Source of the DNA: a virus | IMG/VR virus record: IMGVR_UViG_3300047200_000362 | Span: 1 to 40,056 of that record | DNA length: 40,056 bases | Strand: one strand, 5' to 3' | Shown: piece by piece, positions 2,305-25,344 of the stretch | How the letters are laid out: every line of letters starts with the position of its first letter | Position numbering within the stretch: the stretch's first letter is position 1 | The notes under the pieces: model-generated | Database searches by the model: none | What the model saw: the letters and a program-made list of their open reading frames with translations, nothing else | What the model was told of the DNA's origin: nothing | Translations under genes and position numbers: made by a program

Positions 2305-3065
2305 TTGCTTTTACTCATATTCTTTTCCATGTGCTTAATTTCATCTGTTCCGCTAAATACTATTTCATTATCAATCTCCAACCAAAGTTTATCTGAATAA
2401 TCTATACTATTTAAGATGTGTTTAATACAATTTAATCTTGCCAATTTCTTATTATCGCTTTTGATAACAGCCCAAGGAGCTTGCTTAGTATTACTTGAAA
2501 GCAACATAGAATATTTGCAAATAGTATACTTATCCCAACGTATTTGTGCTTCTAAATCTACTGGAGATATTTTAAATTGCTTTAGATGGTCAGTCTTTCT
2601 TTCTTTAAAACGTTTTGCCTGAACTTTCTTTGATACCGAGAAGTAAAATTTCAAAAGTATTATACCTGAATTTACAATCATCTTCTCAAATAATGGCACT
2701 TCTCTTAAGAATTGCTTATGTTCTTCTTCAGTACAAAAATTCATAACAGGCTCTACACCTGCTCTATTATAATATGATCTATCAAATAACACTATTTGCC
2801 CTGATGATGGGAGATATTGTACATATCTTTGATAATACCACTGTGTTGCTTCAGTTTCTGAAGGTTTCTCAAGTGCAATTATTTTGCATCCTCTTGGGTT
2901 TAAATGTTCAGTAATGCGTTTTATTGTGCCACCCTTGCCACTAGCATCTCTTCCTTCTAATATTATTACAACTTTTAATCCATTAATCTTTACATAATCT
3001 TGCATCTTTAGAAGTTCAATTTGCAGACTTCTAAGTTCTTTTTCATATTCTTCATTGTTCATCAT
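2301..3065 (-). CDS. ppk2: Polyphosphate kinase 2 family protein
   Basis: A 254-residue protein covering one complete PPK2 domain. Walker A GRDASGKGG is at residues 38-46 and the family's Walker B region IVLFDRSYYNR at 91-101; NPRGC and QWYYQRY are also typical. PPK2 enzymes move phosphate between polyphosphate and nucleotides, usually making NTP or NDP from polyP. In a phage this could feed host polyphosphate into nucleotide pools for DNA synthesis; that role is inference. The start overlaps the upstream stop by ATGA (a second ATG follows directly), so it is coupled to the DUF6378-like gene. Confidence 0.93.
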   Translation of the reverse strand: MMNNEEYEKELRSLQIELLKMQDYVKINGLKVVIILEGRDASGKGGTIKRITEHLNPRGCKIIALEKPSETEATQWYYQRYVQYLPSSGQIVLFDRSYYNRAGVEPVMNFCTEEEHKQFLREVPLFEKMIVNSGIILLKFYFSVSKKVQAKRFKERKTDHLKQFKISPVDLEAQIRWDKYTICKYSMLLSSNTKQAPWAVIKSDNKKLARLNCIKHILNSIDYSDKLWLEIDNEIVFSGTDEIKHMEKNMSKSK

Positions 3066-4721: not shown

Positions 4722-4752
4722 TGTTGTTCCTCTTTAATTAAGTGTTGGTAAT

Positions 4753-4781
4753 ATTATATCAGGTATTTTTATATATGTCAA
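4753..4781 (-). promoter_or_regulatory. Class A early promoter, variant
   Basis: TTGACA (4781-4776), 17-nt spacer ending ACCTGA instead of ACCTGC, TATAAT (4758-4753). Confidence 0.8.
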
Positions 4782-4789
4782 TATATATT

Positions 4790-5210
4790 TTAAAGATAGT
4801 GCTTCGCACTCTGCTTCTTTGTATGATTAAAGGAATGTTAAATCTTGCCAGCTAAAGAAAGCTAAAGAATATTAAAGGCAGCTAAGAAAGGCATGGAGGC
4901 TTCGCGTTTACTAGATAAGCAGCCATGAAGAACCCTTCCTACAGATACATTAAAAAATGCATGACCGCAGGTTAAGTTTCTTCTGGCCGTATAGTTGAAA
5001 GAATATAAAATATTCTAAGCAGCACCTTACGGTAAATCGGCTATACAATAAGGTAGCTTCCACCTTATTGTCCCTTCATCCTTCCGATTTAAAGACTGGA
5101 CTCCCGATTTTTTAGAATCGCACTTATGGTTAAGAGACTTTCACTCACAGGTTCTACTGCCATATACGGGATAGCTGGGCGTTATAGCAACGCTAATGTT
5201 CGCAGCATAG
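4790..5210 (-). ncRNA. Candidate large structured RNA, about 400 nt
   Basis: A strong class A promoter at 5216-5244 fires into about 420 nt with no substantial reading frame. The stretch is visibly richer in G+C than its surroundings and full of stems (minus-strand view): GCGUU/AACGC near 5190; CGAUU/AAUCG near 5110; AAAUCGG/CCGAUUU enclosing CAAUAAGGU/ACCUUAUUG at 5035-5089; AGAAUAU/AUAUUCU near 5005; GUGCgaaGCAC at the far end. I found no tRNA, tmRNA, RNase P or group I/II intron signature. The only start with a ribosome site would encode about 14 residues. The exact 3' end is unknown. Confidence 0.6.
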
Positions 5211-5215
5211 GTAAT

Positions 5216-5244
5216 ATTATAGCAGGAATAATTTAACTTGTCAA
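5216..5244 (-). promoter_or_regulatory. Class A promoter for the large structured RNA
   Basis: TTGACA (5244-5239), 17-nt spacer ending CCTGC, TATAAT (5221-5216). No ribosome site or long gene follows. Confidence 0.85.
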
Positions 5245-5342
5245 TCTTTATTTTAAATTAATTATAAAACCCGACAAGTCTTCCTGCTATAACTATATAG
5301 ACAACAACGTTTAAATAAAGTTCAAAAAATAAATATTTATTT

Positions 5343-8176: not shown

Positions 8177-10723
8177 ATGTCTGAAATAACCTTAATAAAA
8201 CACAATGATGTGTACTTAAAAGTACTTGCTGAAAAATCCATCATGCAAGAAATGGCATCATTCTTTACGTTTATGGTTCCTGGTGCGAGATTTCAAAAAG
8301 CAGTAATTAATAAACTTTGGGATGGCCGGATCAGAATGCTAAACCTGTCAAATCATCTAATCTATTTAGGTCTATATGAAAAAATACTAGACTTTGCAGA
8401 AAAATCTGGGTATACATTTACAGAAGATTCATACAAACCTTTAAATGCCGATATTACATTAGAGTCCATTGAACAATACATTAAAGATGTGGTTAAACCT
8501 GCTTCAAAAGGCAAGGAAATTGCTGTCAGGGACTATCAAAATAATGTAGTACATCATTGCATTACTAATCAAAGAGCAACGATTGTATCCCCCACCAGTT
8601 GCCACAAAAAAGGCGATAAGGTATTAATGTCTGATGGAAAATTTAAAAATATTGAAGATATATTAGTAAATGAATCTGTTATAGGTAATGATGGAAAGCA
8701 TAAAAAGGTATTACGTGTATTTAAAGGCGAAAATGCTGAATTATACGATATAATACCAAAAAACTCAAAAAATAAAAAAATAACCGTAACTGGTGAACAC
8801 ATATTACCATTAAAGTTTTCTGATTATAAAGAAAAAAATGGATATGCTAAAGGAGATAAGGATTATATAGAATATATAACAGTAAGTGATTATTTAAAAA
8901 AATCAAATTATTATAAACATTGCGCTAATATGTTTTATAATAATACTGTATTAAATTTTGATAACGAAAAAGACCCTAATATAAATTTATCTCCATATTT
9001 TATAGGGTGTTATATAGGAGATGGTTCATCTTATAGTTGTGCTATTACAAGTATTGATAAAGAGATTATAGATGAAATTTATACACAAGCAAATAAACTG
9101 TCGTGTGTAGTAAAAACATCCCCATCAAATAAATATGCATATAGAATTATAGGAAGCACAAATAAAGAAAATTTTGTTTTTAAAGAATTTAAAAAAGTTG
9201 GTTTATATTTTTCAGGAAAGAATAGAATAAAATGCGAGGATAGATTCGTACCATTTGAGTTAATTAATTCTAGTGAAAACTTCAGATTAGAACTGCTTGC
9301 TGGCTTAATAGATACGGATGGGTATTATTCAAAAAATTGTAATTATGAATATTCTAGTAAATCTTTAAGATTATGTGAAGATGTCCAACTATTAGCAATA
9401 TCTCTTGGATTTAAGACAACAGTTTCATCTAAATTAAATAAAACATACAATAGACTATATTACACAACAAGAATTTCTGGAGATCTTTCAAAAATTCCAG
9501 TTAGATTACCTAGAAAAAAACACGTTGAACAGACTAGACAAGTATATAGAAGCACATATAAGAAAAAATTCGATATTATTTTTCATGGTATTGATGATTT
9601 TTATGGTATTGAAGTAGAAGATCATTTATATATTACTAATGATGGATTAATAACACATAATTCAGGCAAAAGTCTAATGATTTATTCTTTAGTGCGATAT
9701 TTGCTTGGTGCAAAACTGGCTTGCAGAGTGTTATTTATATTTCCAACAGTTGGCCTTGTGTCCCAAATGCACAAAGACTTCATTGACTATTCAACAATAA
9801 ATAATTGGGATGTTGGAGGTAGAAGCCATTTAATATTTGCTGGGCGGGAAAAAATAACCGAGCACCCATTAGTTTTTTCAACATATCAATCATTAACCAG
9901 TATGCCAGCCAAATACTTTAATAGTTTTGATTGTATTATTTGTGATGAAGTGCATCTTGCATCGGCCAAGTCAATAAAAGATATAATGGAGAAGAGCACC
10001 GAAGTTCCATATAAGTTTGGCTTTACCGGAACACTTAACGATTCTAAAGCACACAGTCTGGTGGTGCAAGGACTATTTGGTAATGCTTATATTGCCACAA
10101 CAACCAATGAATTAATGAAGAAGAATGAAATAAGCCAACTAAAAATTACTTGCCTATTATTGAAATATAAACCAGAAACTTGCAAATTATTTGTTGATAC
10201 GAACTACGCAGATGAAATAGAATATGTAGTAAGTAACACAAAACGCATAACATTCGTTAAAAATCTAGTTACGTCATTAAAGGGCAATAGTTTGGTACTC
10301 TTTACCAGAATTTCGCAGGGCAAAATGATTATGGAGTCTTTGAAAGGAAGAGAAAATGTTCATTATGTAGATGGCAAAACTTGCATAGAGAATAGAGAAA
10401 AGGTTAGAACCATTGCAGAAAGTACACACGATTGTATAATTGTGGCAAGTTACGGAGTTTTCAGTACTGGAATTAACATTAAACGATTAAATAATGTAAT
10501 ATTTGCATCACCATATAAGAGTACTATAAAGGTGAGGCAGTCACTTGGTAGGGCCTTACGGCTTTGTGAAGGTAAATCTGGAGCGCAATTGTTTGACATA
10601 GCAGACGATTTGCATCATAAGAGTCATAAGAATTTCGGATTGAAACATTTAGAAGAACGAGTAAGAATTTATTGTGAAGATAGATTAAGTTATAAGATTG
10701 TTGAATATCAATTAGAAAAATGA
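8177..10723 (+). CDS. uvsW: UvsW-type DExH helicase interrupted by an intein
   Basis: An 848-residue precursor. The exteins (residues 1-141 and 496-848; 494 in total) match T4 UvsW (about 500). UvsW is a superfamily 2 helicase that unwinds branched DNA and R-loops in recombination-dependent replication. The Walker A loop is rebuilt by splicing: SPTS joins SGKS. Motif II is DEVH near 590-593, and the C-terminal RecA domain ends with motif VI-like RQSLGRALR. The intein occupies residues 142-495 and must be excised for the ATPase to work. The gene ends just before the ligA promoter. Confidence 0.93.
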   Translation: MSEITLIKHNDVYLKVLAEKSIMQEMASFFTFMVPGARFQKAVINKLWDGRIRMLNLSNHLIYLGLYEKILDFAEKSGYTFTEDSYKPLNADITLESIEQYIKDVVKPASKGKEIAVRDYQNNVVHHCITNQRATIVSPTSCHKKGDKVLMSDGKFKNIEDILVNESVIGNDGKHKKVLRVFKGENAELYDIIPKNSKNKKITVTGEHILPLKFSDYKEKNGYAKGDKDYIEYITVSDYLKKSNYYKHCANMFYNNTVLNFDNEKDPNINLSPYFIGCYIGDGSSYSCAITSIDKEIIDEIYTQANKLSCVVKTSPSNKYAYRIIGSTNKENFVFKEFKKVGLYFSGKNRIKCEDRFVPFELINSSENFRLELLAGLIDTDGYYSKNCNYEYSSKSLRLCEDVQLLAISLGFKTTVSSKLNKTYNRLYYTTRISGDLSKIPVRLPRKKHVEQTRQVYRSTYKKKFDIIFHGIDDFYGIEVEDHLYITNDGLITHNSGKSLMIYSLVRYLLGAKLACRVLFIFPTVGLVSQMHKDFIDYSTINNWDVGGRSHLIFAGREKITEHPLVFSTYQSLTSMPAKYFNSFDCIICDEVHLASAKSIKDIMEKSTEVPYKFGFTGTLNDSKAHSLVVQGLFGNAYIATTTNELMKKNEISQLKITCLLLKYKPETCKLFVDTNYADEIEYVVSNTKRITFVKNLVTSLKGNSLVLFTRISQGKMIMESLKGRENVHYVDGKTCIENREKVRTIAESTHDCIIVASYGVFSTGINIKRLNNVIFASPYKSTIKVRQSLGRALRLCEGKSGAQLFDIADDLHHKSHKNFGLKHLEERVRIYCEDRLSYKIVEYQLEK
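8600..9661 (+). mobile_element. Intein with LAGLIDADG (DOD) homing endonuclease, in the UvsW P-loop
   Basis: 354 residues from Cys1 (TSCHKKGDKV) to the terminal His-Asn (LITHN), followed by Ser as +1. Splicing block A is CHKKGDKVLMSDG, block B TVTGEHILPL, block F/G FYGIEVEDHLYITNDG plus HN. The endonuclease motifs are YFIGCYIGDGS and LLAGLIDTDGYY, each with an acidic residue, so it may be active. Insertion in Walker A is a common intein site. Its codons are richer in A and T than the exteins, which suggests separate acquisition. Confidence 0.93.
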
Positions 10724-10724
10724 T

Positions 10725-10752
10725 TTGACTTCTGCTAAATACCTGCTATAAT
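10725..10752 (+). promoter_or_regulatory. Class A early promoter of ligA
   Basis: TTGACT, 16-nt spacer ending ACCTGC, TATAAT. The core ACCTGCTATA (10741-10750) has a perfect inverse copy, TATAGCAGGT, at 10770-10779 in the leader, where it includes the ribosome site of ligA. Confidence 0.85.
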
Positions 10753-10785
10753 ATTACACATACTTTAACTATAGCAGGTAATGAA

Positions 10786-12621
10786 ATGACCCAAGAAATA
10801 AATGCACAGAAAATGATGGAAAACTACAATACAGAATATAGGGCTGGCAATCCAACAATTAGTGACGCAGAATATGATAATTTATTAGCGCATTTTGCAT
10901 TACAATTTCCAAACAATTCTTACTTCAACCAACAAGCAGTTGAAGAAGATGCTCCAATTGGCAAAACTTGCAAACTCCCACAAAAGATGCTATCAACCCA
11001 GAAGTTATATTCGCACAAAGAAATTGAAAAATTCTTAAATGATTGCGAGGATGTTGGCACTCGTCTTGGTGTAACTGATATGTTATTTCGCATAACTCCC
11101 AAGCTGGATGGGTATGCTGCATTTAGACAGGACAAACAGTTATTTACCAGAGGTAATGGTATAGAAGGTTCAAATATTAGTCACGCTTTAACTAATGGAT
11201 TACAGTCACCAAGATTTAACTGGGCAATAGACAATAATGGGGCGGGTGAAGTGGTATGTAACAAAGAATATTTTGCAGAACATTTGGCAGATTCTTATGA
11301 AAACACTAGAAATATTATAGCTGGAGCTATAAAAAGTGGAACTTTAGATCCAAAAATACACGAAGCAATTAGATTGGGTAAAATTGTATTCTATCCATTT
11401 AATAATTTGGGTGGTTGGATGAAAAAGAAAGACGAAGTGTTAAGAGATATTGAGACTATATGGGATGAAATTATAGATACATGTTTATATAATACCGATG
11501 GAATCGTTTTAGAATGTAATTCGGAAGTTGTTAAAAAGGAGATGGGATCAACTAAACATCATTGGTCTTGGATGGCGGCTTATAAGAAAAATGAATTAAA
11601 AGATAGTCATGTTGTTAAAGTTTTAGGTGTTGTTCCTCAGTGCGGTAAAATTGGGCGAATCACTCCGGTTGTAAGAATAGTACCAACTCAGATTAGTGGT
11701 GTTTGTGTATCAAAAGTAACAGCACATAACTGGGGCAATCTCATAGCTAAAGGTATAGATATTGGTGCAGAAATTCGCGTAATACGCAGCGGATTGGTAA
11801 TACCATTCATTCAGGAAGTCCTTACGCCAGTCGATGAAGTATATGTTCCAGATGCTTGCCCTTCTTGTGGTTCATCTACTAAATTAGTCGGAGATCATTT
11901 ATTATGTACTAATAAAATTGATTGCCCAGCTCAGATAAATGGCGAAACTGAAGATTTTTTTAAGACACTTTCTATTGATGGTTTTGGTGAAAAAATTATA
12001 GAACAGTTAGCAGATGGTGGATTAGATAATTTTACAGATATTTGTAATCTATCAAAAGACGAATTTGGTTTATATATTGGTGGTAAGACTGGTGAAAATT
12101 TATTTAACTCCATTGGTAATGCAAAATTAAAACATACGGAAGATTGGAGATTTTTAGCCGCTTTCAGTCTTAATGGATTAGGTGAGGGAATGTGTTCCAA
12201 ATTATTAGAAGTATATCCATTAACTGATATATTTAATCTAACTGTAGCAAATGTAATCAAAATTTCGGGATTTGGCGATATTAATAGTGTTAATCTCGTT
12301 ACATCATTGGCGAGAATTAAAGAAAATTTTGATAATTTAAGACCACAATTTAATTTAGTTGCTAGTATTATAGGTGGTGTTAAATCAACTAATCTTATTG
12401 CTGGAAAAACTGTTGTATTCACAGGTACTATGGTACAAGGTTCAAGATCGGATATGACGAAGCAAGCAAAATCTTTAGGTGCTAATGTTGGTAGTGGAGT
12501 AACATCATCAACTCACATATTAGTATGTGGGCAGAAAGTTGGGGCAGCAAAGACTAATGCGGCTAAAGCTAATGGTACTTTAATATTAACTGAAACAGAG
12601 TATTTAGACCTTATAAAATAA
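10786..12621 (+). CDS. ligA: NAD-dependent DNA ligase
   Basis: A 611-residue protein with the full bacterial-type order: Ia-like N-terminus (SDAEYDNLL), nucleotidyltransferase with the KxDG lysine at K106 (TPKLDGY), OB region, four-cysteine zinc finger (CPSC ... CTNKIDC), helix-hairpin-helix region (near IDGFGEKI) and a C-terminal BRCT domain from about 532 (AGKTVVFTGTM). It seals nicks using NAD. T4 itself uses an ATP ligase, so this is a different solution in a T4-like genome. It is slightly shorter than typical LigA (about 670). Confidence 0.95.
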   Translation: MTQEINAQKMMENYNTEYRAGNPTISDAEYDNLLAHFALQFPNNSYFNQQAVEEDAPIGKTCKLPQKMLSTQKLYSHKEIEKFLNDCEDVGTRLGVTDMLFRITPKLDGYAAFRQDKQLFTRGNGIEGSNISHALTNGLQSPRFNWAIDNNGAGEVVCNKEYFAEHLADSYENTRNIIAGAIKSGTLDPKIHEAIRLGKIVFYPFNNLGGWMKKKDEVLRDIETIWDEIIDTCLYNTDGIVLECNSEVVKKEMGSTKHHWSWMAAYKKNELKDSHVVKVLGVVPQCGKIGRITPVVRIVPTQISGVCVSKVTAHNWGNLIAKGIDIGAEIRVIRSGLVIPFIQEVLTPVDEVYVPDACPSCGSSTKLVGDHLLCTNKIDCPAQINGETEDFFKTLSIDGFGEKIIEQLADGGLDNFTDICNLSKDEFGLYIGGKTGENLFNSIGNAKLKHTEDWRFLAAFSLNGLGEGMCSKLLEVYPLTDIFNLTVANVIKISGFGDINSVNLVTSLARIKENFDNLRPQFNLVASIIGGVKSTNLIAGKTVVFTGTMVQGSRSDMTKQAKSLGANVGSGVTSSTHILVCGQKVGAAKTNAAKANGTLILTETEYLDLIK

Positions 12622-12622
12622 A

Positions 12623-12630
12623 TATAAATA
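12623..12630 (+). promoter_or_regulatory. Late promoter octamer TATAAATA
   Basis: Exact octamer directly after the ligA stop codon, 3 nt before the structured element at 12634. Confidence 0.6.
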
Positions 12631-12633
12631 GAA

Positions 12634-12685
12634 GTATGGATAGGTGTCAGCTACCGATAAGTCCCTTTAGTAAGGATTTCCATAC
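12634..12685 (+). ncRNA. Structured late-leader element, copy 1 (three-way junction)
   Basis: Closing stem GUAUGG/CCAUAC, then AUA, hairpin GGU/ACC, GAUAA, hairpin GUCC/GGAU with loop CUUUAGUAA. Same spacing from TATAAATA (3 nt) and same size (52 nt) as the minus-strand copies at 210-261 and 1823-1873. The middle resembles a degenerate hammerhead, but the required CUGAUGA and GAAA are absent. Confidence 0.55.
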
Positions 12686-12868
12686 AACCAACAACAACTT
12701 TATTTCGATAATGGTACTGACGCACTTGCCCTCGAAACACTACATAAACAAACTTTCAAAGAATTCCAGTATACTGGTGAACCAATAATGCAAAATGGCA
12801 ATACAGAACTTTTCATCAAAAATATTCTCGAAGTAAAAGAATATCCACTTCAAGCATTTTTCTGTTGA
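12674..12868 (+). pseudogene. Start-less open frame after the late leader
   Basis: The frame is open for 64 codons, from just after TAA at 12671 to TGA at 12866, and reads like a real protein (LYFDNGTDALALETLHKQ, EFQYTGEPI), yet it has no ATG/GTG/TTG near its beginning; the first ATG is about 30 codons in. Probably the 3' part of a gene whose start was lost, or one initiated at a rare codon after the structured leader. The stop lies in the next -35 box. Confidence 0.45.
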
Positions 12869-12892
12869 CTTCTGCCAAATACCTGTTATAAT
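12865..12892 (+). promoter_or_regulatory. Class A early promoter
   Basis: TTGACT, 16-nt spacer ending ACCTGT, TATAAT; drives the operon from 12924 through the RNA ligase. Confidence 0.87.
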
Positions 12893-12923
12893 ATTACACA
12901 TACTTAATTAAAAGAGAGAAAAA

Positions 12924-13172
12924 ATGGTACACCAATACATTTTTACAGAAGAAAATATAAAATCGCTTTATGAAAAGGCATTGGAATTTTCGATGCCACC
13001 AGTTACAATAAACGAAGGAACTAAATCAGAATCACTTTACTATCCAAATAAACCAATGCATGATTGGGCTATGGATAATTATTCATTTGAAGAAATAATA
13101 TTCTACATTTGTAATAGAGATCCCAATCTTTGCAATGCGGTTTATGATTATGCACATCGAGGCAATATATGA
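12924..13172 (+). CDS. Hypothetical 82-residue protein
   Basis: First gene of the operon, with AAAGAGAGAAAAA before the ATG. Begins MVHQYIFTEENIKSLYEKAL; ends in a helical stretch (LCNAVYDYAHRGNI). No domain recognised. Overlaps the next gene by ATGA. Confidence 0.72.
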   Translation: MVHQYIFTEENIKSLYEKALEFSMPPVTINEGTKSESLYYPNKPMHDWAMDNYSFEEIIFYICNRDPNLCNAVYDYAHRGNI

Positions 13173-13405
13173 AATATGACTTATTACCATGCCCATTTTG
13201 TGGATTTGTGTTGGATATAAATGATTCTGATTGCATTTATCCAGCAACAAGACCAATCTATAACCCAGTATCAAAAGCTATGGAATATCCACTATATGAA
13301 GTAAATTGTTATGAAAGTGGTGGTGGCTGTGGGGCAAATTTACTTGGAGAGACTGTAGAAGATTGCATAAGATTGTGGAACACAAGAAGAGGTATAGAAG
13401 AATGA
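13169..13405 (+). CDS. Lar-like zinc-finger protein
   Basis: A 78-residue protein with LPCPFCG at the start, a second pair in GGGCGA and the ending ETVEDCIRLWNTRR. This is the layout of the Lar restriction-alleviation-like family common in phages and prophages. Rac prophage Lar modulates type I restriction; most relatives are untested. Overlaps both neighbours. Confidence 0.8.
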   Translation: MKYDLLPCPFCGFVLDINDSDCIYPATRPIYNPVSKAMEYPLYEVNCYESGGGCGANLLGETVEDCIRLWNTRRGIEE

Positions 13406-13572
13406 GAGGTTTAACAACTGAAAGACTGATGATGTTACTGCGAGAGATTCCAGCAGGAGCAATTTTAAGCACAAATGCCCAAGGAAATTTTAAAATAATC
13501 TACAAAGGCAGTTTTTATGGTTATATTGATATTACTGACAAAACAATACACTTAGCAGGAGAAACAAAATGA
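13402..13572 (+). CDS. Hypothetical 56-residue protein
   Basis: Starts MRGLTTERLMMLLREI by ATGA overlap, with AAGAGG 9 nt upstream. The second half is predicted beta-strand (FKIIYKGSFYGYIDI). Unknown function. Confidence 0.68.
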   Translation: MRGLTTERLMMLLREIPAGAILSTNAQGNFKIIYKGSFYGYIDITDKTIHLAGETK

Positions 13573-13721
13573 GTAAAGCAACACCAGCCTTTCTTCAAGG
13601 GCAGACCGCATTTGATAGACTAAAAGGGATTTCACAAAATCCTTATCAACAAAACACAGTGCAAAATAAAGACTGGGCAAATGGTTATAAATTTCAGCAA
13701 GCAATTATGAGGAACAAATAA
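13569..13721 (+). CDS. Hypothetical 50-residue protein
   Basis: ATGA overlap at the start; its stop abuts the RNA ligase ATG directly (TAAATG), so the two are probably coupled. Polar, rich in Q and N (ISQNPYQQNTVQNKDWANGY). Unknown function. Confidence 0.68.
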   Translation: MSKATPAFLQGQTAFDRLKGISQNPYQQNTVQNKDWANGYKFQQAIMRNK

Positions 13722-14738
13722 ATGAGTGAAATAGTTAGAAAATTGGCGACAGTTGAACGAATTATAGAAATTACACCAATAGAAGGTGCAGATTTAATAT
13801 GTGCCTACAAGGTGAGAGGATGGAAGGTAGTTGATACTGTCAATAAGTATAAAGTTGGCGATCTTGTAATATTTTGCGAAATCGACTCATTTATCCCCCA
13901 TGAACTTGCGCCATTTCTTTCCAAGGGAAAAGAACCAAAAGAATACTTGGGAGTGAGAGGTGAAAGACTTCGCACAGTAAAACTTCGTGGCTGTATTTCG
14001 CAGGGACTATTGTTGCCTATTGGTGTAATTAATCATATGGATGGGCTAGAAGGATGGGATGTAACTGAAATTTTAAATATCAACAAATGGGAGGCTCCCG
14101 TAAATGCACAGTTAGCTGGAATGGCAAAGGGTAATTTTCCACATTGGGCTAGAAAAACTAATCAACAACGATGCCAAAATATTAAAAGTTATATTCAAAC
14201 GTGGTATGAAAATGATGTTTTGTGGGAAGTGACCATAAAATTAGATGGCAGTTCAATGAGTATTGGTCATAATAATGGAGAAATTGTGGTGTGTTCTCAT
14301 AATATTGAGTTAAAATTAGATCAAGAAGGAAATGCATTTGTAGATGCTGCAAATAAACTTAATATTTTAGACAAATTATCAAAATATGGTAATATTGTAA
14401 TTAGCGGTGAATTAATTGGGAATGGAATACAAAAAAATAGAGAACATTTACAATCCCATGAATTTTATGTATTTGATATTTTTGATGTCGATGAACAAAA
14501 ATATATTGGATGTAAAGATAGATTAAAAATAGTTGAAGAACTTGGTTTACACCATGTGCCAATTTTATATAAATCAATTACTTTAAAGGAGTTAGATTTA
14601 GATACTATAGATAAAATTTTAGAGTTTGCTGAAGGCCCATCAATGAACAATAACAAACGAGAAGGTTTAGTGTTTAAACTCATTGATGGTTGCGATTCGT
14701 TTAAGGCAGTTGCTAATAGTTATATTTTGGAGAAATAA
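13722..14738 (+). CDS. RNA ligase, Rnl5 (DraRnl)-like, with N-terminal OB domain
   Basis: A 338-residue protein. Residues 1-110 resemble the N-terminal OB domain of Deinococcus RNA ligase-like enzymes (ERIIEITPIEGAD, VRGWKVV). The nucleotidyltransferase part has motif I TIKLDGSS (K173), a motif III-like FYVFDIFD, motif IV REGLVFK and motif V SFKAVANSYIL. It would adenylylate and seal nicked RNA, possibly repairing tRNA or anticodon cuts made by host defence; the substrate is inference. Confidence 0.88.
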   Translation: MSEIVRKLATVERIIEITPIEGADLICAYKVRGWKVVDTVNKYKVGDLVIFCEIDSFIPHELAPFLSKGKEPKEYLGVRGERLRTVKLRGCISQGLLLPIGVINHMDGLEGWDVTEILNINKWEAPVNAQLAGMAKGNFPHWARKTNQQRCQNIKSYIQTWYENDVLWEVTIKLDGSSMSIGHNNGEIVVCSHNIELKLDQEGNAFVDAANKLNILDKLSKYGNIVISGELIGNGIQKNREHLQSHEFYVFDIFDVDEQKYIGCKDRLKIVEELGLHHVPILYKSITLKELDLDTIDKILEFAEGPSMNNNKREGLVFKLIDGCDSFKAVANSYILEK

Positions 14739-14742
14739 ATGC

Positions 14743-14771
14743 TTGACTTTATTAAAAATACCTGCTATAAT
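14743..14771 (+). promoter_or_regulatory. Class A early promoter
   Basis: TTGACT, 17-nt spacer ending ACCTGC, TATAAT; then AAAGGAGAG and the ATG at 14803. Confidence 0.88.
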
Positions 14772-14802
14772 ATTACCATACAATTGAATAAAGGAGAGAT
14801 AA

Positions 14803-14991
14803 ATGAGTAATTACGAAATACGAGATCAGGGCAATTTTAAATTTGCAATTGAAACGAGCAGCGGAGAGACGATTGTAAAAGGTTTGTATTTCTGTCAAGC
14901 AGTAAATGTAAAGTCTGAATTGGAGTACCTAGCAAGTATCATTAATATACTTGGCGAAGATGTTAGTGTAATGGGAGAGTGTTATGAGTAA
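14803..14991 (+). CDS. Hypothetical 62-residue protein
   Basis: Begins MSNYEIRDQGNFKFAIETSS, predicted beta-rich and then helical. Excellent ribosome site AAAGGAGAG. First gene of the gp55 operon; overlaps the next gene by 8 nt. Unknown function. Confidence 0.75.
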   Translation: MSNYEIRDQGNFKFAIETSSGETIVKGLYFCQAVNVKSELEYLASIINILGEDVSVMGECYE

Positions 14992-15172
14992 GATAGTGGA
15001 GTGGGATCAGGAAGACTATTTTCTTGCTTTCAATAGATACAATTTTCTTAAAACATTGAACACTGATCAGATATTAAATATAATTGCATCGGCAGATAGC
15101 GGATACGGGCGAGACTATGATAGCAATTTTGATTACTTTTTAGATGCTATGATGAAGGGTGATGGGCTATGA
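14984..15172 (+). CDS. Hypothetical acidic 62-residue protein
   Basis: Starts inside the previous gene behind GGGAGAGTGTT. Acidic, aromatic-rich (WDQEDYFLAFNRYNFL; YDSNFDYFLDAMMKGD). ATGA overlap with the sigma factor gene, so expressed with it; a partner role is possible but unproven. Confidence 0.72.
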   Translation: MSKIVEWDQEDYFLAFNRYNFLKTLNTDQILNIIASADSGYGRDYDSNFDYFLDAMMKGDGL

Positions 15173-15783
15173 GTAATCCATCTAAGAAAAATTACATAGA
15201 CAATGTTCGATTTAGTAAAGAAGCTGCAAAACACGCAGAACTATTTCGATATAATAGAGCTAATGGGCTGGCACCACCAAAGATGAATGATTATCTTGGG
15301 AAGTGCATATTGCTGTTGGCAACCAAAATATCTAGTATGCCTTGCTTTTCAGGATATTCCTTTCGTGATGAATTTGTATCGGATGGTATTGAAATAGCAA
15401 TAAGATATTTTTACAATTACAACCCGGAAGTAATATCCGAAAGGACTGGCAAACCTAGCGCGGGAGCCTATGCATTTTTTAGTCAAATCATGATTCGGAG
15501 ATTCTTCAAAACGAGGCAGGAGAACAAGCTTCAAATGTTTATCCGCGAAAAATATATTGCATCATCGGATGACTCATTTGCTGATATGCAAGGGCAAGAT
15601 GCTGAAGAGCATTCTGAGGCGTTAAAGGAAGTTTTGGGTGAGATGAGTGGTCACGGCTATATAGAGCACGATACCAAAGTTGCTATAAAAAAGGCAGAAT
15701 TAAAAGCGAAGCAATTAACCAAAAAAGAATTGAATATGGTAGCGAAATTGGATACTGTATTGCCAATGGCTGCATTTTTTTGA
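15169..15783 (+). CDS. gp55-like late transcription sigma factor
   Basis: A 204-residue protein with the T4 gp55 layout: KNYIDNVRF near the start, MNDYLGKCILLLATKIS, the diagnostic FSGYSFRDEFVSDGIEIAIRY, then AYAFFSQIMIRRFFKTRQE. T4 gp55 (185 aa) replaces sigma70 on RNA polymerase at TATAAATA promoters and uses the sliding clamp through its C-terminus. TATAAATA occurs in this window at 265, 1877, 7181 and 12623. The gene ends in a run of seven T (TTTTTTTGA). Confidence 0.88.
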   Translation: MSNPSKKNYIDNVRFSKEAAKHAELFRYNRANGLAPPKMNDYLGKCILLLATKISSMPCFSGYSFRDEFVSDGIEIAIRYFYNYNPEVISERTGKPSAGAYAFFSQIMIRRFFKTRQENKLQMFIREKYIASSDDSFADMQGQDAEEHSEALKEVLGEMSGHGYIEHDTKVAIKKAELKAKQLTKKELNMVAKLDTVLPMAAFF

Positions 15784-15953
15784 ATAGTACAATAATAACA
15801 CTACATCAGTTTTTTGTAGATGAACCAATAGAATCTTTAAAACTTCCATTGGTTCCCTCCAAAGTCTGCTCAAAGTGCGGTGTTGAGAAGCCTTTGGAAG
15901 AGTATTATAAAGCAATAGAAAATCACTTGACTTCTGCCAAAAACCTGCTATAA
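15780..15953 (+). CDS. Small CxxC zinc-motif ORF overlapping the gp55 stop
   Basis: Possible start TTG at 15780, inside the T run that ends the sigma gene; 57 codons. It contains KVCSKCGVEKPLEEYYKA, the first half of a zinc motif common in HNH-linked phage proteins, then is cut short by reading into the next promoter (HLTSAKNLL, stop TAA in the -10 box). It may be a truncated remnant, or a C-terminal extension of gp55 reached by slippage on the T run. Confidence 0.5.
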   Translation: MNSTIITLHQFFVDEPIESLKLPLVPSKVCSKCGVEKPLEEYYKAIENHLTSAKNLL

Positions 15954-15954
15954 T
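15927..15954 (+). promoter_or_regulatory. Class A early promoter
   Basis: TTGACT, 16-nt spacer ending ACCTGC, TATAAT. Lies wholly inside the zinc-motif ORF. Confidence 0.87.
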
Positions 15955-15988
15955 ATTACACATACTTTAAAACAAAGAGGAAATAAAA

Positions 15989-16189
15989 ATGATAACTGAA
16001 ACAACCCACTTTATATCACGTAACCACGCAATCACATTCTACAAAACTCTTAATATCAAAAAGGATAAAGTTAAACTGATGATTGAAAGCAAAATAATCA
16101 ACATTGGTGCGCCAAATATAACTAAACACGAAATACTAACCGTAGATATAAATGGTCGTTACCAAATTGTTACAACCACCGGAGAATAA
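15989..16189 (+). CDS. Hypothetical 66-residue protein
   Basis: Begins MITETTHFISRNHAITFYKT; AAAGAGGAAATAAAA precedes the ATG. Predicted helix, then beta hairpins (KHEILTVDINGRYQIVTTTG). Unknown function. Confidence 0.72.
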   Translation: MITETTHFISRNHAITFYKTLNIKKDKVKLMIESKIINIGAPNITKHEILTVDINGRYQIVTTTGE

Positions 16190-16190
16190 C

Positions 16191-16397
16191 ATGTCAAAAC
16201 ATCAACACAAGCACCGATTTTTAAACACGCATGAAACTACACCATTGGCATTAGGAACGGTATATTATACGCCCAGTTTACATCCAAGTAAACATACTTG
16301 GAAGGATAGCAAGAAAGATTTTTCATTCTTAGAATTAAATTTAGTATTTCTTCATAAAAAAGATGCAATGCATGTTTTTGCATATCGGTTCGTATGA
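16191..16397 (+). CDS. Hypothetical basic 68-residue protein
   Basis: Start chosen at the ATG after CCGGAGAATAAC. The N-terminus is His/Lys-rich (MSKHQHKHRFLNTH). A longer frame exists upstream but has no ribosome site. Unknown function. Confidence 0.68.
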   Translation: MSKHQHKHRFLNTHETTPLALGTVYYTPSLHPSKHTWKDSKKDFSFLELNLVFLHKKDAMHVFAYRFV

Positions 16398-16753
16398 TGA
16401 GTTACACATACATTGCACAGGATACTACAATGAATTTTGAAAAATTTGCAAACCTTTTCACCGAGATTTATACTCAAACGAAAACTAGTGAAAAATTTCT
16501 CGATTCGGTTCCAAGCAGTATAAGAGGAGTATTTGCGTATAATCAGCACGTTAATGCATATTATGCCATACAAAATCTTCTCATTAAAGAAGTTTTTCCA
16601 GAAAAAATGCTGTATGATATTGAGTATTTTTTATTTGACTTTGATTTCGGCTTCCAAATCTTCGACAGCAATGGCAACGAATACTTCATTTGCGATTTAA
16701 ATGGCATACTTGAGTACTTCTACATGGAACACTTCAGAGTATCAACCCAATGA
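16394..16753 (+). CDS. Hypothetical 119-residue protein
   Basis: Opens with two ATG codons overlapping the previous stop. Aromatic-rich, with an acidic C-terminal half (YDIEYFLFDFDFGFQIFDS, ICDLNGILEYFYM). No domain recognised. Confidence 0.72.
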   Translation: MMSYTYIAQDTTMNFEKFANLFTEIYTQTKTSEKFLDSVPSSIRGVFAYNQHVNAYYAIQNLLIKEVFPEKMLYDIEYFLFDFDFGFQIFDSNGNEYFICDLNGILEYFYMEHFRVSTQ

Positions 16754-16992
16754 CAACACATTACACGCAATTAGAAGTTGAAATATACTTTGACGATGCA
16801 AACAACCAAACTTGTGCCTTGCATTTCCCTGACAAGGTTTGCAAATTTTATATGACCATCGGTATGAGGGCCATTGAGACATGTTATTTCGCAGATCACG
16901 AAAATGGTGAAACATTGGTTAGGCGAGGCCATTGCGAAAATGGCACTTTGATTCCTTGCAAGAATTGCCCACTTTGGGGGAATGGCAAATGA
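16750..16992 (+). CDS. Small Cys/His protein (80 aa)
   Basis: Begins MTTHYTQLEVEIYFDDANNQ; carries CYFADHENG, GHCENG and CKNCPLW, possibly one metal site. Overlaps both neighbours. Unknown function. Confidence 0.7.
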   Translation: MTTHYTQLEVEIYFDDANNQTCALHFPDKVCKFYMTIGMRAIETCYFADHENGETLVRRGHCENGTLIPCKNCPLWGNGK

Positions 16993-17147
16993 CTAAAGAA
17001 GAGATTCTAAAGGACATCAAAAGTCTTTGCGAAGAATTTGATATTAAACTTTACCCAAATGATGTAATAATTCCGCAGTATCTTGACTTTGAAAGGGCAG
17101 AATATATCAACAATTTATACTTAGCTCTGCCAACAACTTTAAATTAA
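16989..17147 (+). CDS. Hypothetical 52-residue protein
   Basis: Start by ATGA overlap (MTKEEILKDIKSLCEEF) after GGGGGAATGGCAA. Helical N-terminal half. Last gene before the next promoter. Unknown function. Confidence 0.68.
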   Translation: MTKEEILKDIKSLCEEFDIKLYPNDVIIPQYLDFERAEYINNLYLALPTTLN

Positions 17148-17149
17148 AC

Positions 17150-17177
17150 TTGACTTCTGCCAAATACCTGCTATAAT
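17150..17177 (+). promoter_or_regulatory. Class A early promoter
   Basis: TTGACT, 16-nt spacer ending ACCTGC, TATAAT; drives 17208-17909. Confidence 0.88.
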
Positions 17178-17207
17178 ATTACACATACTTAAAAAAGAGG
17201 AAACAAA

Positions 17208-17342
17208 ATGAAAACATTAAATGATATTATAGCAGAAGCGGTTGATTTGGACAATGAAATTAAAAACACAACAGATTTGGACAAAGTTGCTGAATTATTA
17301 GTGCAACTTGCCAATTGCAAAGAGGAATTTTGGAGAGTATGA
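17208..17342 (+). CDS. Hypothetical acidic 44-residue protein
   Basis: Behind AAAGAGGAAACAAA. Begins MKTLNDIIAEAVDLDNEIKN; all-helical and acidic. Unknown function. Confidence 0.7.
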   Translation: MKTLNDIIAEAVDLDNEIKNTTDLDKVAELLVQLANCKEEFWRV

Positions 17343-17344
17343 AA

Positions 17345-17527
17345 ATGTATAAATTAATGCCATTAAAAAGAGAAGTAATAAATGCAGTTGCAGATGTAAT
17401 TGCCAATTCAAACACAGAAATGGAATTTAAAAGAGAACGCATAACTTATATAAGTGATTTAATAGCAAATTGTGATGACATGAGAATACTGGAAGAAGTA
17501 TTAAATATAGTAGGAGTAGTAAAATGA
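17345..17527 (+). CDS. Hypothetical 60-residue helical protein
   Basis: Start placed at MYKLMPLKREVINAV, 9 nt after GGAG; an ATG two codons earlier overlaps the previous stop and is also possible. Helical (EEVLNIVGVVK end). Overlaps the next gene. Confidence 0.68.
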   Translation: MYKLMPLKREVINAVADVIANSNTEMEFKRERITYISDLIANCDDMRILEEVLNIVGVVK

Positions 17528-17619
17528 AAACAGCGTATAAATTATTTGTAATAACAACAATAGGTATCATTGGATTATTTCAGATGGTAGTTGAAATTAT
17601 TAAATTGAGATTGAAATGA
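17524..17619 (+). CDS. 31-residue single-span membrane peptide
   Basis: MKTAYKLFVITTIGIIGLFQ then a basic tail (KLRLK). One hydrophobic span. ATGA overlaps on both sides support it as a real gene. Tiny membrane proteins recur in this genome. Confidence 0.65.
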   Translation: MKTAYKLFVITTIGIIGLFQMVVEIIKLRLK

Positions 17620-17909
17620 ATGGAGGAACTAATACAGTAAATCCAACCCATCTATTAATGATCGACTATATAGCAAAACTTGAAAAGAAAGTTGCTAATC
17701 TTGAATTTATAAATACCAAATGGAATGAATATACGCATAAAGTTGAGTGTAGAAATGATTTTCTTGAAGTGGAAATTACTAGACTTGAGGATAAAGTTGA
17801 AGAGTATCAGCATGATGTTATAGAACTTCAACATGGAATTGATAGACTCTCGAGTTACAATGCTGGACTTAAAGTAAAGATGAGAATGATAGCCGGATTA
17901 ATCCCTTGA
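17616..17909 (+). CDS. Coiled-coil protein (97 aa)
   Basis: Residues 20-85 show heptad spacing (KLEKKVANLEFINTKW; ITRLEDKVEEYQHDVIELQ), so it probably forms a coiled coil. Unknown function. Confidence 0.72.
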   Translation: MNGGTNTVNPTHLLMIDYIAKLEKKVANLEFINTKWNEYTHKVECRNDFLEVEITRLEDKVEEYQHDVIELQHGIDRLSSYNAGLKVKMRMIAGLIP

Positions 17910-17933
17910 CATTTACCAAAAACCTGCTATAAT
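17906..17933 (+). promoter_or_regulatory. Class A early promoter
   Basis: TTGACA, 16-nt spacer ending ACCTGC, TATAAT. The TGA of the coiled-coil gene lies in the -35 box. Confidence 0.88.
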
Positions 17934-17963
17934 ATTACACATACTTAAAAAAAGAGGTGAAAC

Positions 17964-18230
17964 ATGAATAATAAACCAACATTAAGTCAAATAGACTTAG
18001 CAGGAAAATATGCATTGGATAACAATTACAATATTGTTTATAATGGAGAATTTGATGGTGACGATGAATTTGCGCCAACTAGGATTGCTAAGACTGGTGA
18101 TGTATTTGTGATGATTGATGGTTTTGAATATTACAACCATCAGGCTATTGCAGAGCTTTATACACAGCTACACCACCCATTACCGATTGCTGAAGATACA
18201 AGAATAATTGATGATTTTGACTTTGAATAG
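17964..18230 (+). CDS. Hypothetical acidic 88-residue protein
   Basis: Behind AAAGAGGTGAAAC. Begins MNNKPTLSQIDLAGKYAL; strongly acidic middle and end (GEFDGDDEFAP; IIDDFDFE). Acidic early phage proteins sometimes mimic DNA, but nothing here proves that. Confidence 0.7.
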   Translation: MNNKPTLSQIDLAGKYALDNNYNIVYNGEFDGDDEFAPTRIAKTGDVFVMIDGFEYYNHQAIAELYTQLHHPLPIAEDTRIIDDFDFE

Positions 18231-18239
18231 GAGAATATG

Positions 18240-18413
18240 ATGGGAAAGGTACGAGATTTGATAATGAGAGTTTTTTTGGTAAACCAAGTTGGCTGGACAG
18301 TTGAGATAAAACACTGTGATACCAAGAAAATATTGGTATTTCAACCTGAATTCGCAACTAGAGACTTGGCACTGGAATTTTTGCAAACTGCACTTAATGA
18401 TTTGGAGGATTGA
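18240..18413 (+). CDS. Hypothetical 57-residue protein
   Basis: Second of two adjacent ATGs chosen (6 nt after AGGAG). MGKVRDLIMRVFLVNQVGW, then a helical end. Unknown function. Confidence 0.65.
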   Translation: MGKVRDLIMRVFLVNQVGWTVEIKHCDTKKILVFQPEFATRDLALEFLQTALNDLED

Positions 18414-18414
18414 G

Positions 18415-18576
18415 ATGACAGAAACAATAGAAACAAAGGTAGATGCATACCAAAAACACTATTTGGCTGCATTTGAGATTGAGATAGAAGGTACTTATAT
18501 TTCTTCAGATGGATATGCTGCATATTTTGCATATATAAAAGCCAAAAATGAAGCAAAGGCATTGGAGGCAGAATGA
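18415..18576 (+). CDS. Small helical protein (53 aa), paralogue of the gene at 27244
   Basis: Start at MTETIETKVDAYQKHY after GGAGG. It shares KVDAYxxHYxAA, then EGTYISSDxxAAYxxYxKA, with the 58-residue protein at 27244-27420 on the opposite strand under the other promoter class. Unknown function. Confidence 0.72.
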   Translation: MTETIETKVDAYQKHYLAAFEIEIEGTYISSDGYAAYFAYIKAKNEAKALEAE

Positions 18577-18755
18577 AGTTTACTGGGAAAGTATCGGGCA
18601 ATAGGCAAGTAGGATTTAAATTTGAAGTATTTTATGGAAGTTATGGTTTAGATTTAGGAGAACCTGTAAAGAGTGAAGATGGTTTTAAGATGTCAAGCGA
18701 AGCTTATGAAGCGATGCATAATTATATAACAACAATTGGAGAAGACAATGAATAG
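18573..18755 (+). CDS. Hypothetical 60-residue protein
   Basis: ATGA overlap at the start; MKFTGKVSGNRQVGFKFEVF. Beta-rich N-terminal half, helical end. Unknown function. Confidence 0.68.
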   Translation: MKFTGKVSGNRQVGFKFEVFYGSYGLDLGEPVKSEDGFKMSSEAYEAMHNYITTIGEDNE

Positions 18756-18909
18756 AATTTTTGAATATTTGCTAAACAGGCATTTTATGCTAACAATATT
18801 TACATTGGTATTATTGATTAGCTTTGTATTAAGCTTAATTACTGTTGCCACATGGAACTTTTTAGTTTGTGTTGTAGTATCGGCTACATTGGTTTATATC
18901 TCTTTATAG
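18748..18909 (+). CDS. Two-span membrane protein (53 aa)
   Basis: MNRIFEYLLNRHFM, then two hydrophobic segments (about residues 14-33 and 36-53). Overlaps the previous gene by 8 nt. Unknown function. Confidence 0.68.
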   Translation: MNRIFEYLLNRHFMLTIFTLVLLISFVLSLITVATWNFLVCVVVSATLVYISL

Positions 18910-18950
18910 AGGTGATTTTTTAGAAGAGTGTAATATTAATATTATTTAGC

Positions 18951-18978
18951 TTGACTTCTGCCAAAAACCTGCTATAAT
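18951..18978 (+). promoter_or_regulatory. Class A early promoter
   Basis: TTGACT, 16-nt spacer ending ACCTGC, TATAAT; drives 19012-20210. Confidence 0.88.
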
Positions 18979-19011
18979 ATTACACATCACTTAAAATAAA
19001 GAGGAAACAAT

Positions 19012-19224
19012 ATGCAAAATGGTTTAATAGATCTACCCAACCCCATCGCCAGACAGATTCTTTCAGAAGACTTTGCTCGTTCTTACAAAGCGTATCGTAA
19101 AGCTGAAAATTCTGTAAGGACATGTCCTAATGACCAAACTATATTAGAGGAATTTCGAATGGCGCAAAGTGAGTTCTTTACAGTGCGAGACATCTACAAT
19201 AACACCACCACAGAGGAAATTTAA
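19012..19224 (+). CDS. Hypothetical helical 70-residue protein
   Basis: Behind AAAGAGGAAACAAT. MQNGLIDLPNPIARQILSED; helical with conserved-looking aromatic spacing (SYKAYRKAE). Unknown function. Confidence 0.7.
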   Translation: MQNGLIDLPNPIARQILSEDFARSYKAYRKAENSVRTCPNDQTILEEFRMAQSEFFTVRDIYNNTTTEEI

Positions 19225-19491
19225 ATGACAACAATCGTAATAGATGATCAAGATGGCAACCCAATAGAAATTGACTTAGAGTTATGCAAGCTAATTGCCT
19301 TAAAAGCTGTTAGAGATCTTTCAAACATCGAAACTGAAAAATATGATTTTTCAACGTGTATTGCAATGCTTCAATCAGTTTGCATTTCAATTTTATTAGA
19401 CGCTGGCTGGGAAAAAGAAGAATTGATTGGAGAAATTTCAGCCCACATCGACCAACTTACAAAAAAATCCAAACAACGTGTATTACATTAA
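19225..19491 (+). CDS. Hypothetical 88-residue protein
   Basis: Its ATG abuts the previous TAA. MTTIVIDDQDGNPIEIDLEL, then helices. Unknown function. Confidence 0.7.
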   Translation: MTTIVIDDQDGNPIEIDLELCKLIALKAVRDLSNIETEKYDFSTCIAMLQSVCISILLDAGWEKEELIGEISAHIDQLTKKSKQRVLH

Positions 19492-19499
19492 GGAATAAA

Positions 19500-19685
19500 A
19501 TGAATAATATCAAAGTGCAACACGATTACTTAATCGCCCAGCTAAAGGATTATGCAAGTAGATTAAAAGACCTTAGAGACTCTTGCCCACATACAGATGC
19601 AATAGAAACTACAGAAGGTGCTAATTATGAATATATAGTATATCATTGCCCAGATTGTGGCATAAGATGGAGTGAAGATACATGA
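19500..19685 (+). CDS. Small zinc-motif protein (61 aa)
   Basis: MNNIKVQHDYLIAQLKDYAS; then CPHTD and YHCPDCGIRW, giving a plausible CxH...CxxC zinc knuckle at the C-terminus. AAGGAATAAA precedes the start; the frame extends further upstream without a ribosome site. Unknown function. Confidence 0.7.
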   Translation: MNNIKVQHDYLIAQLKDYASRLKDLRDSCPHTDAIETTEGANYEYIVYHCPDCGIRWSEDT

Positions 19686-19888
19686 AACAGAGTGACCTAT
19701 TTAGACTTTATGCGAATTGTATTGATTTATGTGAAGGCACTAATATAAAACCGTACAAGTGCATCAAAAACAAAGCAGGACAAACATATCAAAACACACC
19801 AAATTTCCTTGGTAATCCAGAAGACTACAAATTCGCAGTTGCGATTGTAGATAATAGACCAGTATTTACGATAGAGGTATCAAAATGA
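19682..19888 (+). CDS. Hypothetical 68-residue protein
   Basis: ATGA overlaps on both sides. MKQSDLFRLYANCIDLCEG; beta-rich second half. Unknown function. Confidence 0.68.
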   Translation: MKQSDLFRLYANCIDLCEGTNIKPYKCIKNKAGQTYQNTPNFLGNPEDYKFAVAIVDNRPVFTIEVSK

Positions 19889-20067
19889 AAAAAACAGTAG
19901 ACCAATTATTAGAAGAATATCAAATAGCCGCAAAATATTCGGGTGGGTTATATGTAAAGTTAATGCAAGACTTGGAATACGTGAAAGCCAACGATATTAC
20001 CAATAAAGCATACCACGCATATATAGAGGCATTTGACGCACAACCTTGGCTGGATGAGTCAGCATGA
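19885..20067 (+). CDS. Small helical protein (60 aa), paralogue of the gene at 3659
   Basis: MKKTVDQLLEEYQIAAKYSG; matches the start and middle (EYVKA, YxxAIxAFDA-like) of the 57-residue protein at 3659-3832. Unknown function. Confidence 0.72.
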   Translation: MKKTVDQLLEEYQIAAKYSGGLYVKLMQDLEYVKANDITNKAYHAYIEAFDAQPWLDESA

Positions 20068-20210
20068 TTAAAGTAATACATTTATTAATGAACTCTTTAC
20101 TACTAATTGCCTTAGTGGTATTTGCTGCTCTTAACTACCATGACCGAATAACCGCAGAACCAACAGTGCAACAATGTGAAATAGTTAAAATAACACTTGA
20201 TGAAAAATAA
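20064..20210 (+). CDS. Single-span membrane protein (48 aa)
   Basis: MIKVIHLLMNSLLLIALVVF: one N-terminal hydrophobic segment, possibly a signal anchor, then a polar tail with one Cys. Its stop lies in the next promoter's spacer. Confidence 0.66.
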   Translation: MIKVIHLLMNSLLLIALVVFAALNYHDRITAEPTVQQCEIVKITLDEK

Positions 20211-20224
20211 ATACCTGCTATAAT
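20197..20224 (+). promoter_or_regulatory. Class A early promoter, weak -35
   Basis: TTGATG, 16-nt spacer ending ACCTGC, TATAAT, located inside the end of the membrane protein gene. Confidence 0.8.
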
Positions 20225-20262
20225 ATTACACATACTTTAAAAACAACAACCGGAGATATACA

Positions 20263-20433
20263 ATGCAAGAATCATTAAAAGAATTTGGCATAACAGAAAG
20301 TGCATATATAGAATCACTAGAAAAAGAAATTTCAAAACTGAAAAAACTCAATTCTTTGTGGGAAGACCGATACAACAATATGGTAATATTAAAAGATAGT
20401 TATAAACTTGGTGTAGCAGTTAATTTAAAATAA
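20263..20433 (+). CDS. Hypothetical coiled-coil-like protein (56 aa)
   Basis: Behind CCGGAGATATACA. MQESLKEFGITESAYIESLE; the central LEKEISKLKKLNSLW is a short coiled coil. Unknown function. Confidence 0.68.
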   Translation: MQESLKEFGITESAYIESLEKEISKLKKLNSLWEDRYNNMVILKDSYKLGVAVNLK

Positions 20434-25341: not shown

Positions 25342-25344
25342 GCG

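Follow-up and report, generated by a model that had tools for sequence, protein, structure and literature searches.

Three related elements in a fragment of a T4-like phage

The window (the whole stretch of DNA analyzed, 40,056 nt, positions 1 to 40,056 of virus record IMGVR_UViG_3300047200_000362) derives from a T4-like phage, of which it is a 40-kb fragment. Homologues in cyanophages and pelagiphages match its gp19-like tail tube protein and the major capsid protein of a sister contig at about 44-64%, and genes for UvsW, an NAD-dependent DNA ligase, and an RNA ligase are present. Near relatives were found only in contigs from one metagenome (L125/L138, L137/L235, and L127/L243). Two other features of the window were noted in passing: a phage-borne gene for polyphosphate kinase 2 (PPK2; 2301-3065), which is also retained in L125, and an intein-like insert with Hint and LAGLIDADG domains (8177-10723), which interrupts the UvsW-like helicase gene.

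An earlier note had described three copies of a short RNA element at 12634-12685 (plus strand), 1823-1873 (minus strand), and 210-261 (minus strand). All three were found at these positions, and the octamer TATAAATA ends 3 nt before the closing stem in each. The sister contig L125 contains two copies in the same gene order as the window (PPK2, element, Hef, element, Hef, capsid); one of them has the same 52-nt sequence as copy 3, and in the other, most differences from copy 2 fall in the P2 loop. L137 holds a near-copy of copy 1 after a sliding-clamp gene.

The elements consist of a closing stem P1 (5-8 bp), the junction bases UA (or AUA), hairpin P2, a five-base joint (J), hairpin P3 with its loop L3 (7-12 nt), a short joint, and the 3’-strand of P1 (P1’). 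Further 3’ lie the segment S4, just behind P1, and P4, a hairpin at the Shine-Dalgarno (SD) motif downstream of S4, the loop of which usually holds a further segment, S5. The features of the window are as follows.

12623-12630, plus strand: putative late-promoter octamer TATAAATA of copy 1, exactly 10 nt before the UA junction
12634-12685, plus strand: element, copy 1; S4 lost
12634-12639/12680-12685 and 12643-12645/12653-12655, plus strand: P1 and P2 of copy 1, segmented by hand
12656-12660, plus strand: joint GAUAA of copy 1, followed by P3 (12661-12664/12674-12677) and L3 (12665-12673)
12674-12868, plus strand: open frame without start codon after copy 1
1912-1917, minus strand: sigma70-type -35 motif TTGACT, copy 2
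1890-1895, minus strand: sigma70-type -10 motif TATAAT, copy 2
1877-1884, minus strand: putative late-promoter octamer TATAAATA, copy 2
1823-1873, minus strand: element, copy 2, with P1 AUAUGGC/GCCAUAU, P2 GG/CC, joint GAAAA, P3 CUG/CAG, and L3 CGUGAGAAA (1835-1843)
1811-1816, minus strand: S4 of copy 2 (UUCUCA), pairing with UGAGAA of L3
1795-1810, minus strand: SD hairpin P4 of copy 2 (stem ACCUU/AAGGU, loop ACUCAA), with S5 (CUCA) in its loop; also present in the minimum free energy (MFE) fold
302-1786, minus strand: Hef-like homing endonuclease gene led by copy 2
278-305, minus strand: sigma70-type promoter, copy 3 (TTGACT 300-305, TATAAT 278-283)
265-272, minus strand: putative late-promoter octamer TATAAATA, copy 3
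210-261, minus strand: element, copy 3, with P1 GUGUGG/CCACAU, P2 GAUU/GGUC, joint GAAAA, P3 GUAC/GUAC, and L3 CUUCAGUAA (223-231)
195-202, minus strand: S4 of copy 3 (UUACUGAA), pairing with UUCAGUAA of L3
178-194, minus strand: SD hairpin P4 of copy 3 (stem UAGCUU/GAGUUA, loop UACUG), with S5 (UUACUG) overlapping its loop
2-172, minus strand: start of a second Hef-like homing endonuclease gene, led by copy 3, which runs off the window

The promoter motifs were called from the sequence, in the case of the -35 motif of copy 2 also from its promoter family, and in the case of the octamers of copies 2 and 3 also from their spacing.

The common fold is supported by comparison

Single-sequence folding was unremarkable (z of -0.7 to -1.5), the MFE structures of copies 2 and 3 differed from the proposed fold, and TATAAATA by itself was not enriched in the window (8 seen versus 11 expected). 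The case for a structure is therefore comparative. Additional copies were gathered by Rfam scans and BLAST. When copy 3 was compared with named phages by blastn, intergenic matches were found in Vibrio phage PVA8 (E 4e-4) and Aeromonas phage 4_4512 (E 0.01), each directly before an endonuclease gene. Most matches of a first pattern scan were start codons of marine T4-like genes, and a pattern scan of the genome contigs yielded only matches that lacked the closing stem or the core.

Two covariance models were built. Model R1, based on five elements (the window copies and the copies of L125 and L137), found a new member at L235:15368-15447 (E 2.4e-9) and also matched unrelated phages (E 1.8e-5 to 8e-3), while 149 Enterobacterales genomes searched under strict filters yielded no match. 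Model R2 was based on 14 elements from foreign phages and included no sequence of the window clade. The top three matches of R2 in an unfiltered search of the window were 209-262 (E 1.8e-9), 1822-1874 (E 6.4e-5), and 12633-12686 (E 0.013), that is, copies 3, 2, and 1. R2 also matched the sister copies L137 and L235b (16.2 and 11.8 bits, searched in small stretches), and its best match in 383 kb of marine T4-like and related contigs had an E value of 0.22. The search for further members, which the earlier note had suggested as its own check, was thus passed by both models.

Of 23 copies, 22-23 keep the base pairs of P1, P2, and P3, each of which occurs as 2-6 standard pair types; the sixth pair of P1 is kept in 19 of 20. 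These copies are related by descent and were segmented into P1-P3 by hand, with L3 boundaries set by hand from P3. UA was found in all copies, and the five-base joint was GAAAA in 17 of 23. The closing stem with two hairpins that had been proposed was thereby confirmed as P1, P2, and P3, together with the junction motifs UA and GAWAA. The loops CUUUAGUAA and CUUCAGUAA had been read correctly, and CGUGAGAAA occupies the same 9-nt place in the remaining copy, copy 2. The 3’-parts, S4 and the SD hairpin, had been missed. A self-cleaving ribozyme was rejected, as no Rfam ribozyme matched and the sequence offered no support.

Relation to int-alpA RNA

Judged by sequence comparison, the window elements are divergent relatives, or a variant, of the int-alpA RNA (Rfam RF02996). 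Copy 3 matched the Rfam model with 28.0 bits (E 0.012), below the curated cut-off of 35.8 bits, and copies 1, 2, L137, L235b, and L125a had no match at E<=10. The copy of PVA8 scored 31.0 bits, and scores above the cut-off were obtained for X14 (45.0 bits), Tbat2_3 (47.6 bits), GF-2 (44.4 bits), Tyrion (44.0 bits), and 4_4512 (39.8 bits). Because the window copies miss the curated score, they are not formal members of the family, yet they are judged to fold and work like members, and intermediate phage copies bridge the gap in score. The architecture P1-UA-P2-GAAAA-P3-CU-P1’ with covariation and the start of an ORF close downstream are common to both, and the 3’-tail of the Rfam model (uaAgGG) fits S4. 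Pairing between the P3 loop and this tail was found in copies 2, 3, L125a, L125b, and L235b; it comprises 4 bp in L137 and is lost in copy 1. Unlike int-alpA, the window copies are AU-rich and have a T4-like late promoter, and in contrast to the int/alpA location, copies of the window clade are followed by homing endonuclease genes or preceded by genes for ligase, clamp, and UvsX.

Rfam types int-alpA as ‘Gene; sRNA’. The only mention found in the literature searched was a presence/absence entry in STEC genomes (PMC12370729), and RF02996 was not found there by its identifier. No prior description of a link to homing endonuclease genes (HEGs), of the partner S5, or of an alternative between S4 and S5 was found in that literature, the scope of which did not extend to the int-alpA discovery paper; these features may be new.

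Two promoter types with a fixed spacing to the junction

In the T4-like copies (window clade, PVA8, and PVA23), the distance from the end of the octamer to UA is 10 nt in 9 of 10 cases and 11 nt in the tenth; one of these copies has the octamer variant CATAAATA. In the other phages, the corresponding distance for TATAAT or a form with one mismatch is 11 nt in 8 of 17 copies. Immediately upstream, copies 2 and 3 have a second promoter, of the sigma70 type. TATAAATA is a plausible T4-like late promoter, because in sister contigs it is likewise found ahead of genes for the scaffold, portal, tail tube, and terminase. Two promoter types share one spacing, and standard promoter geometry therefore places the expected start of transcription at the beginning of P1 or a few nucleotides into it. 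A start of late transcripts downstream of the element, which the earlier note had named as the result that would speak against it, is disfavored by this spacing.

Several other promoter-associated features were observed. In the marine T4-like contigs L005-L124, TATAAATAGAAGTATGG often puts what looks like a start codon 5 nt downstream of the late-promoter octamer, about at the expected transcription start, hinting at leaderless late mRNAs in these contigs. In the window, a promoter-like repeat, CTTGACAATC..GAAAGTATGAAATAATACATCATACTTTC, occurs 27 times ahead of small ORFs (24163-38877, read on the minus strand); a palindrome, GAAAGTATGA/TCATACTTTC, spans the -10 region of this repeat and is read as a shared operator of a small-gene regulon. 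A different recurrent promoter, TTGACTTCTGCCAAATACCTGCTATAATATTACACATACTT, precedes plus-strand genes (10719-20265). Right after a sigma70-type promoter, about 480 nt without ORF (4750-5260, minus strand) look structured (e.g. CGGGAGTCCAGTC, AATAAGGTGGAAGCTACCTTATT); Rfam searches of this region were no better than chance, and BLAST against phages found no match beyond the promoter. It is possibly a new phage RNA.

L3 is complementary to two downstream segments

In 36 copies, L3 was found to be complementary both to S4, just 3’ of P1, and to S5, next to or in the SD motif. S4 starts 2-13 nt (usually 5-13 nt) after P1, and the L3-S4 pairing usually has 5-7 bp. S5 typically ends 6-11 nt before the start codon and overlaps the P4 loop by at least 3 nt in 28 of the 36 copies. 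The score of L3 with its own S4 was 14.7, versus 7.9 for loops matched with the flanks of other copies; for S5 the values were 12.5 versus 9.0 (0 of 20,000 permutations in both cases). Both signals persisted in the 31 unique L3s and in the 17 L3s that contain no SD-complementary CCU, UCC, or CCC. P4 was collectively beyond 2,000 shuffles in 24 copies.

The three loops with the following partners illustrate the double complementarity: CACCAA in X14 (S4 and S5 both UUGGUG), CUCACAUCAC in PVA23 (S4 GUGAUG, S5 GAUGUG), and CUUCAGUAA in copy 3 (S4 and S5 both UUACUG). The L3-S5 pairing has just 4 bp in copy 2 and L235b, and S4 is gone in copy 1 and broken in V1211 and phi8.2. For copy 2 and L137, the case for L3-S4 rests on the larger copy set and not on shuffles of the S4 flanks.

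The leaders precede homing endonuclease genes of several families

A start codon follows closely behind nearly all copies, and 17 intact phage copies directly precede free-standing homing/HNH endonuclease genes of at least 7 families. The gene led by copy 2 matches phrog_3339 (E 9.7e-84) and is related to Hef genes; the product of the second Hef-like gene has 503 aa in L125. The L235b element lies between the UvsX gene and a GIY-YIG homing endonuclease ORF. The HNH family phrog_655 is led in PVA8 (PVA8a) and PVA23, phrog_953 in 4_4512 (both copies), X14, Vibrio 1.198, and Vibrio 1.178, phrog_99 in X14, Vibrio 1.211, Enterobacter BHUENT6, and TW1, phrog_2081 in Vibrio 1.167, phrog_681 in Vibrio phage 1.088.O, and phrog_59 in Tbat2_3. 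Exceptions are PVA8b, which precedes a 180-aa ORF without known function, and D3 and GF-2, which precede short unknown ORFs. Bacterial int-alpA copies mostly lead uncharacterized genes. Because of these bacterial copies and of D3 and GF-2, the function cannot depend on an endonuclease.

No intact gene follows copy 1 or L137. The open frame behind copy 1 matches residues 484-532 of 576 of phrog_681 (E 7.7e-4) and is tentatively regarded as a C-terminal remnant of such an endonuclease, perhaps a decayed HEG. This assignment stays weak, because the remnant showed no similarity, in direct BLASTP, to the Vibrio phage 1.088.O protein of this family. The L137 element lies between the clamp and clamp-loader genes without an ORF behind it. 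It may be a relic, because PVA8 has a leader and an ORF at the same place.

The deposited starts of the HNH genes in Shewanella phage X14 (L255:1491) and Vibrio phage 1.211.A (L290:1196) lie inside or next to the RNA leader, and the likely ATG of both is about 93 nt further on than annotated. Two other readings were tried and rejected. Translational bypassing of the gene 60 type at copy 1 (GGA UAG...GGA) has no start codon before the take-off site, and the pattern is absent from the other copies. A leaderless start at AUGG/GUGG in P1 is at odds with the SD motifs of the real starts downstream, and foreign copies have no AUG there.

A proposed translational switch and its alternatives

We favor the view that the elements are probably a cis-acting translational switch in the mRNA 5’-leader of mobile HEGs. 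The parts of this proposal that come from comparison of copies are P1-P3, L3-S4, L3-S5, P4, the promoter spacing, and the association with genes. The mRNA would begin with the folded three-way junction P1-UA-P2-GAAAA-P3-CU-P1’, and L3 would pair either with S4, forming a pseudoknot 3’ of P1, or with S5 at the SD motif, mostly inside the P4 loop. L3 cannot fully pair with both together, because they use overlapping loop bases; that the two forms exclude each other in the cell is what we infer. In the putative off state, the L3-S5 kissing interaction and P4 would hide the SD motif. In the putative on state, L3-S4 would release it and the ribosome could open P4. The junction probably decides which form wins, via folding order or a bound factor as the presumed trigger. 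The likely use, with respect to timing and benefit, would be to hold a potentially harmful nuclease low or late. Such a purpose is plausible, because several T4-like HEGs are controlled by SD-sequestering RNA structures together with late promoters (PMC2988022). The earlier suggestion of a 5’-leader acting on stability or translation, or as a cis-regulatory RNA, is supported, except that the elements lead HEGs and not late mRNAs generally.

A more specific form of the switch is a riboswitch or protein-binding leader, in which a metabolite, or a protein of the host or phage, is bound at the UA/GAAAA/CU junction and determines whether L3 pairs with S4 or S5. The near-invariant junction amid freely covarying stems, and its use ahead of unrelated gene families, would fit such a leader, but the gene context has no consistent metabolic theme, and we regard this form as a tentative possibility. 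With similar reserve, int-alpA-type RNAs might be seen as portable sensors, the junction near the transcription start reading a cue (metabolite, protein, or infection state) and moving L3 between the decoy S4 and S5 of the SD hairpin; homing endonucleases and satellite genes of unrelated phages would have repeatedly acquired this ready-made control, under host or T4-like late promoters.

The position of P1 at or near the predicted transcription start, with a spacing fixed for both promoter types, and a three-way junction with L3 pairing 3’ of P1 could also indicate a shield of the 5’-end. P1 and the L3-S4 pseudoknot would then block 5’-end-dependent mRNA decay, similar in topology to viral exonuclease-resistant RNAs, and translational control would be secondary. 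However, this leaves the match of L3 to S5 beside the SD motif and P4 unexplained, and we consider it rather unlikely. Less likely still is a trans-acting small RNA, as the Rfam typing of int-alpA implies and as the lack of an intact ORF behind L137 and copy 1 would allow: nearly all copies are found just ahead of a start codon, L3 is a better fit to the S4 and S5 of the same copy than to those elsewhere in the set, and L137 is possibly a relic. That the conserved entity is DNA, i.e. a homing or operator site copied along with each cassette, appears highly improbable. HEGs do copy flanking DNA, and the late promoter of I-TevI in T4 has an operator to which the enzyme itself binds (PMC2988022), but the stems covary with pairing kept, L3, S4, and S5 covary across 31 different loops, and one architecture is common to unrelated nucleases.

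Comparison with known systems

Flaviviral exonuclease-resistant RNAs (xrRNAs) are three-way junctions in which the P3 loop pairs 3’ of P1. The likeness to the present leader is one of topology alone, and no sequence homology is claimed; linker lengths and junction motifs differ, and xrRNAs have no counterpart of S5 or P4. The hairpins of T4-like HEGs (I-TevI, I-TevII, I-TevIII, segB, and Aeh1 mobE) likewise belong to phage HEG leaders that combine a late promoter with a structured RNA at the SD motif. An RNA hairpin at the SD motif directly upstream of a HEG was likewise found for copies 2, 3, and L235b, but not for copy 1 and L137. The known hairpins are single and gene-specific, and the late transcripts of I-TevI are too short to form theirs, whereas the present leader has a conserved junction and two alternative partners, is common to unrelated nucleases, and is predicted to start at the transcription start.

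The proposal gives a concrete function to an orphan Rfam family that is now typed as an sRNA. It suggests that one RNA control device is common to unrelated selfish endonucleases (Hef, GIY-YIG, and several HNH types) and spans phages of Vibrio, Aeromonas, Shewanella, Enterobacter, and Pseudoalteromonas, plus the host of this T4-like phage. Gene-specific hairpins of HEGs are already known; a shared, mobile, and bistable leader would, if true, be new.
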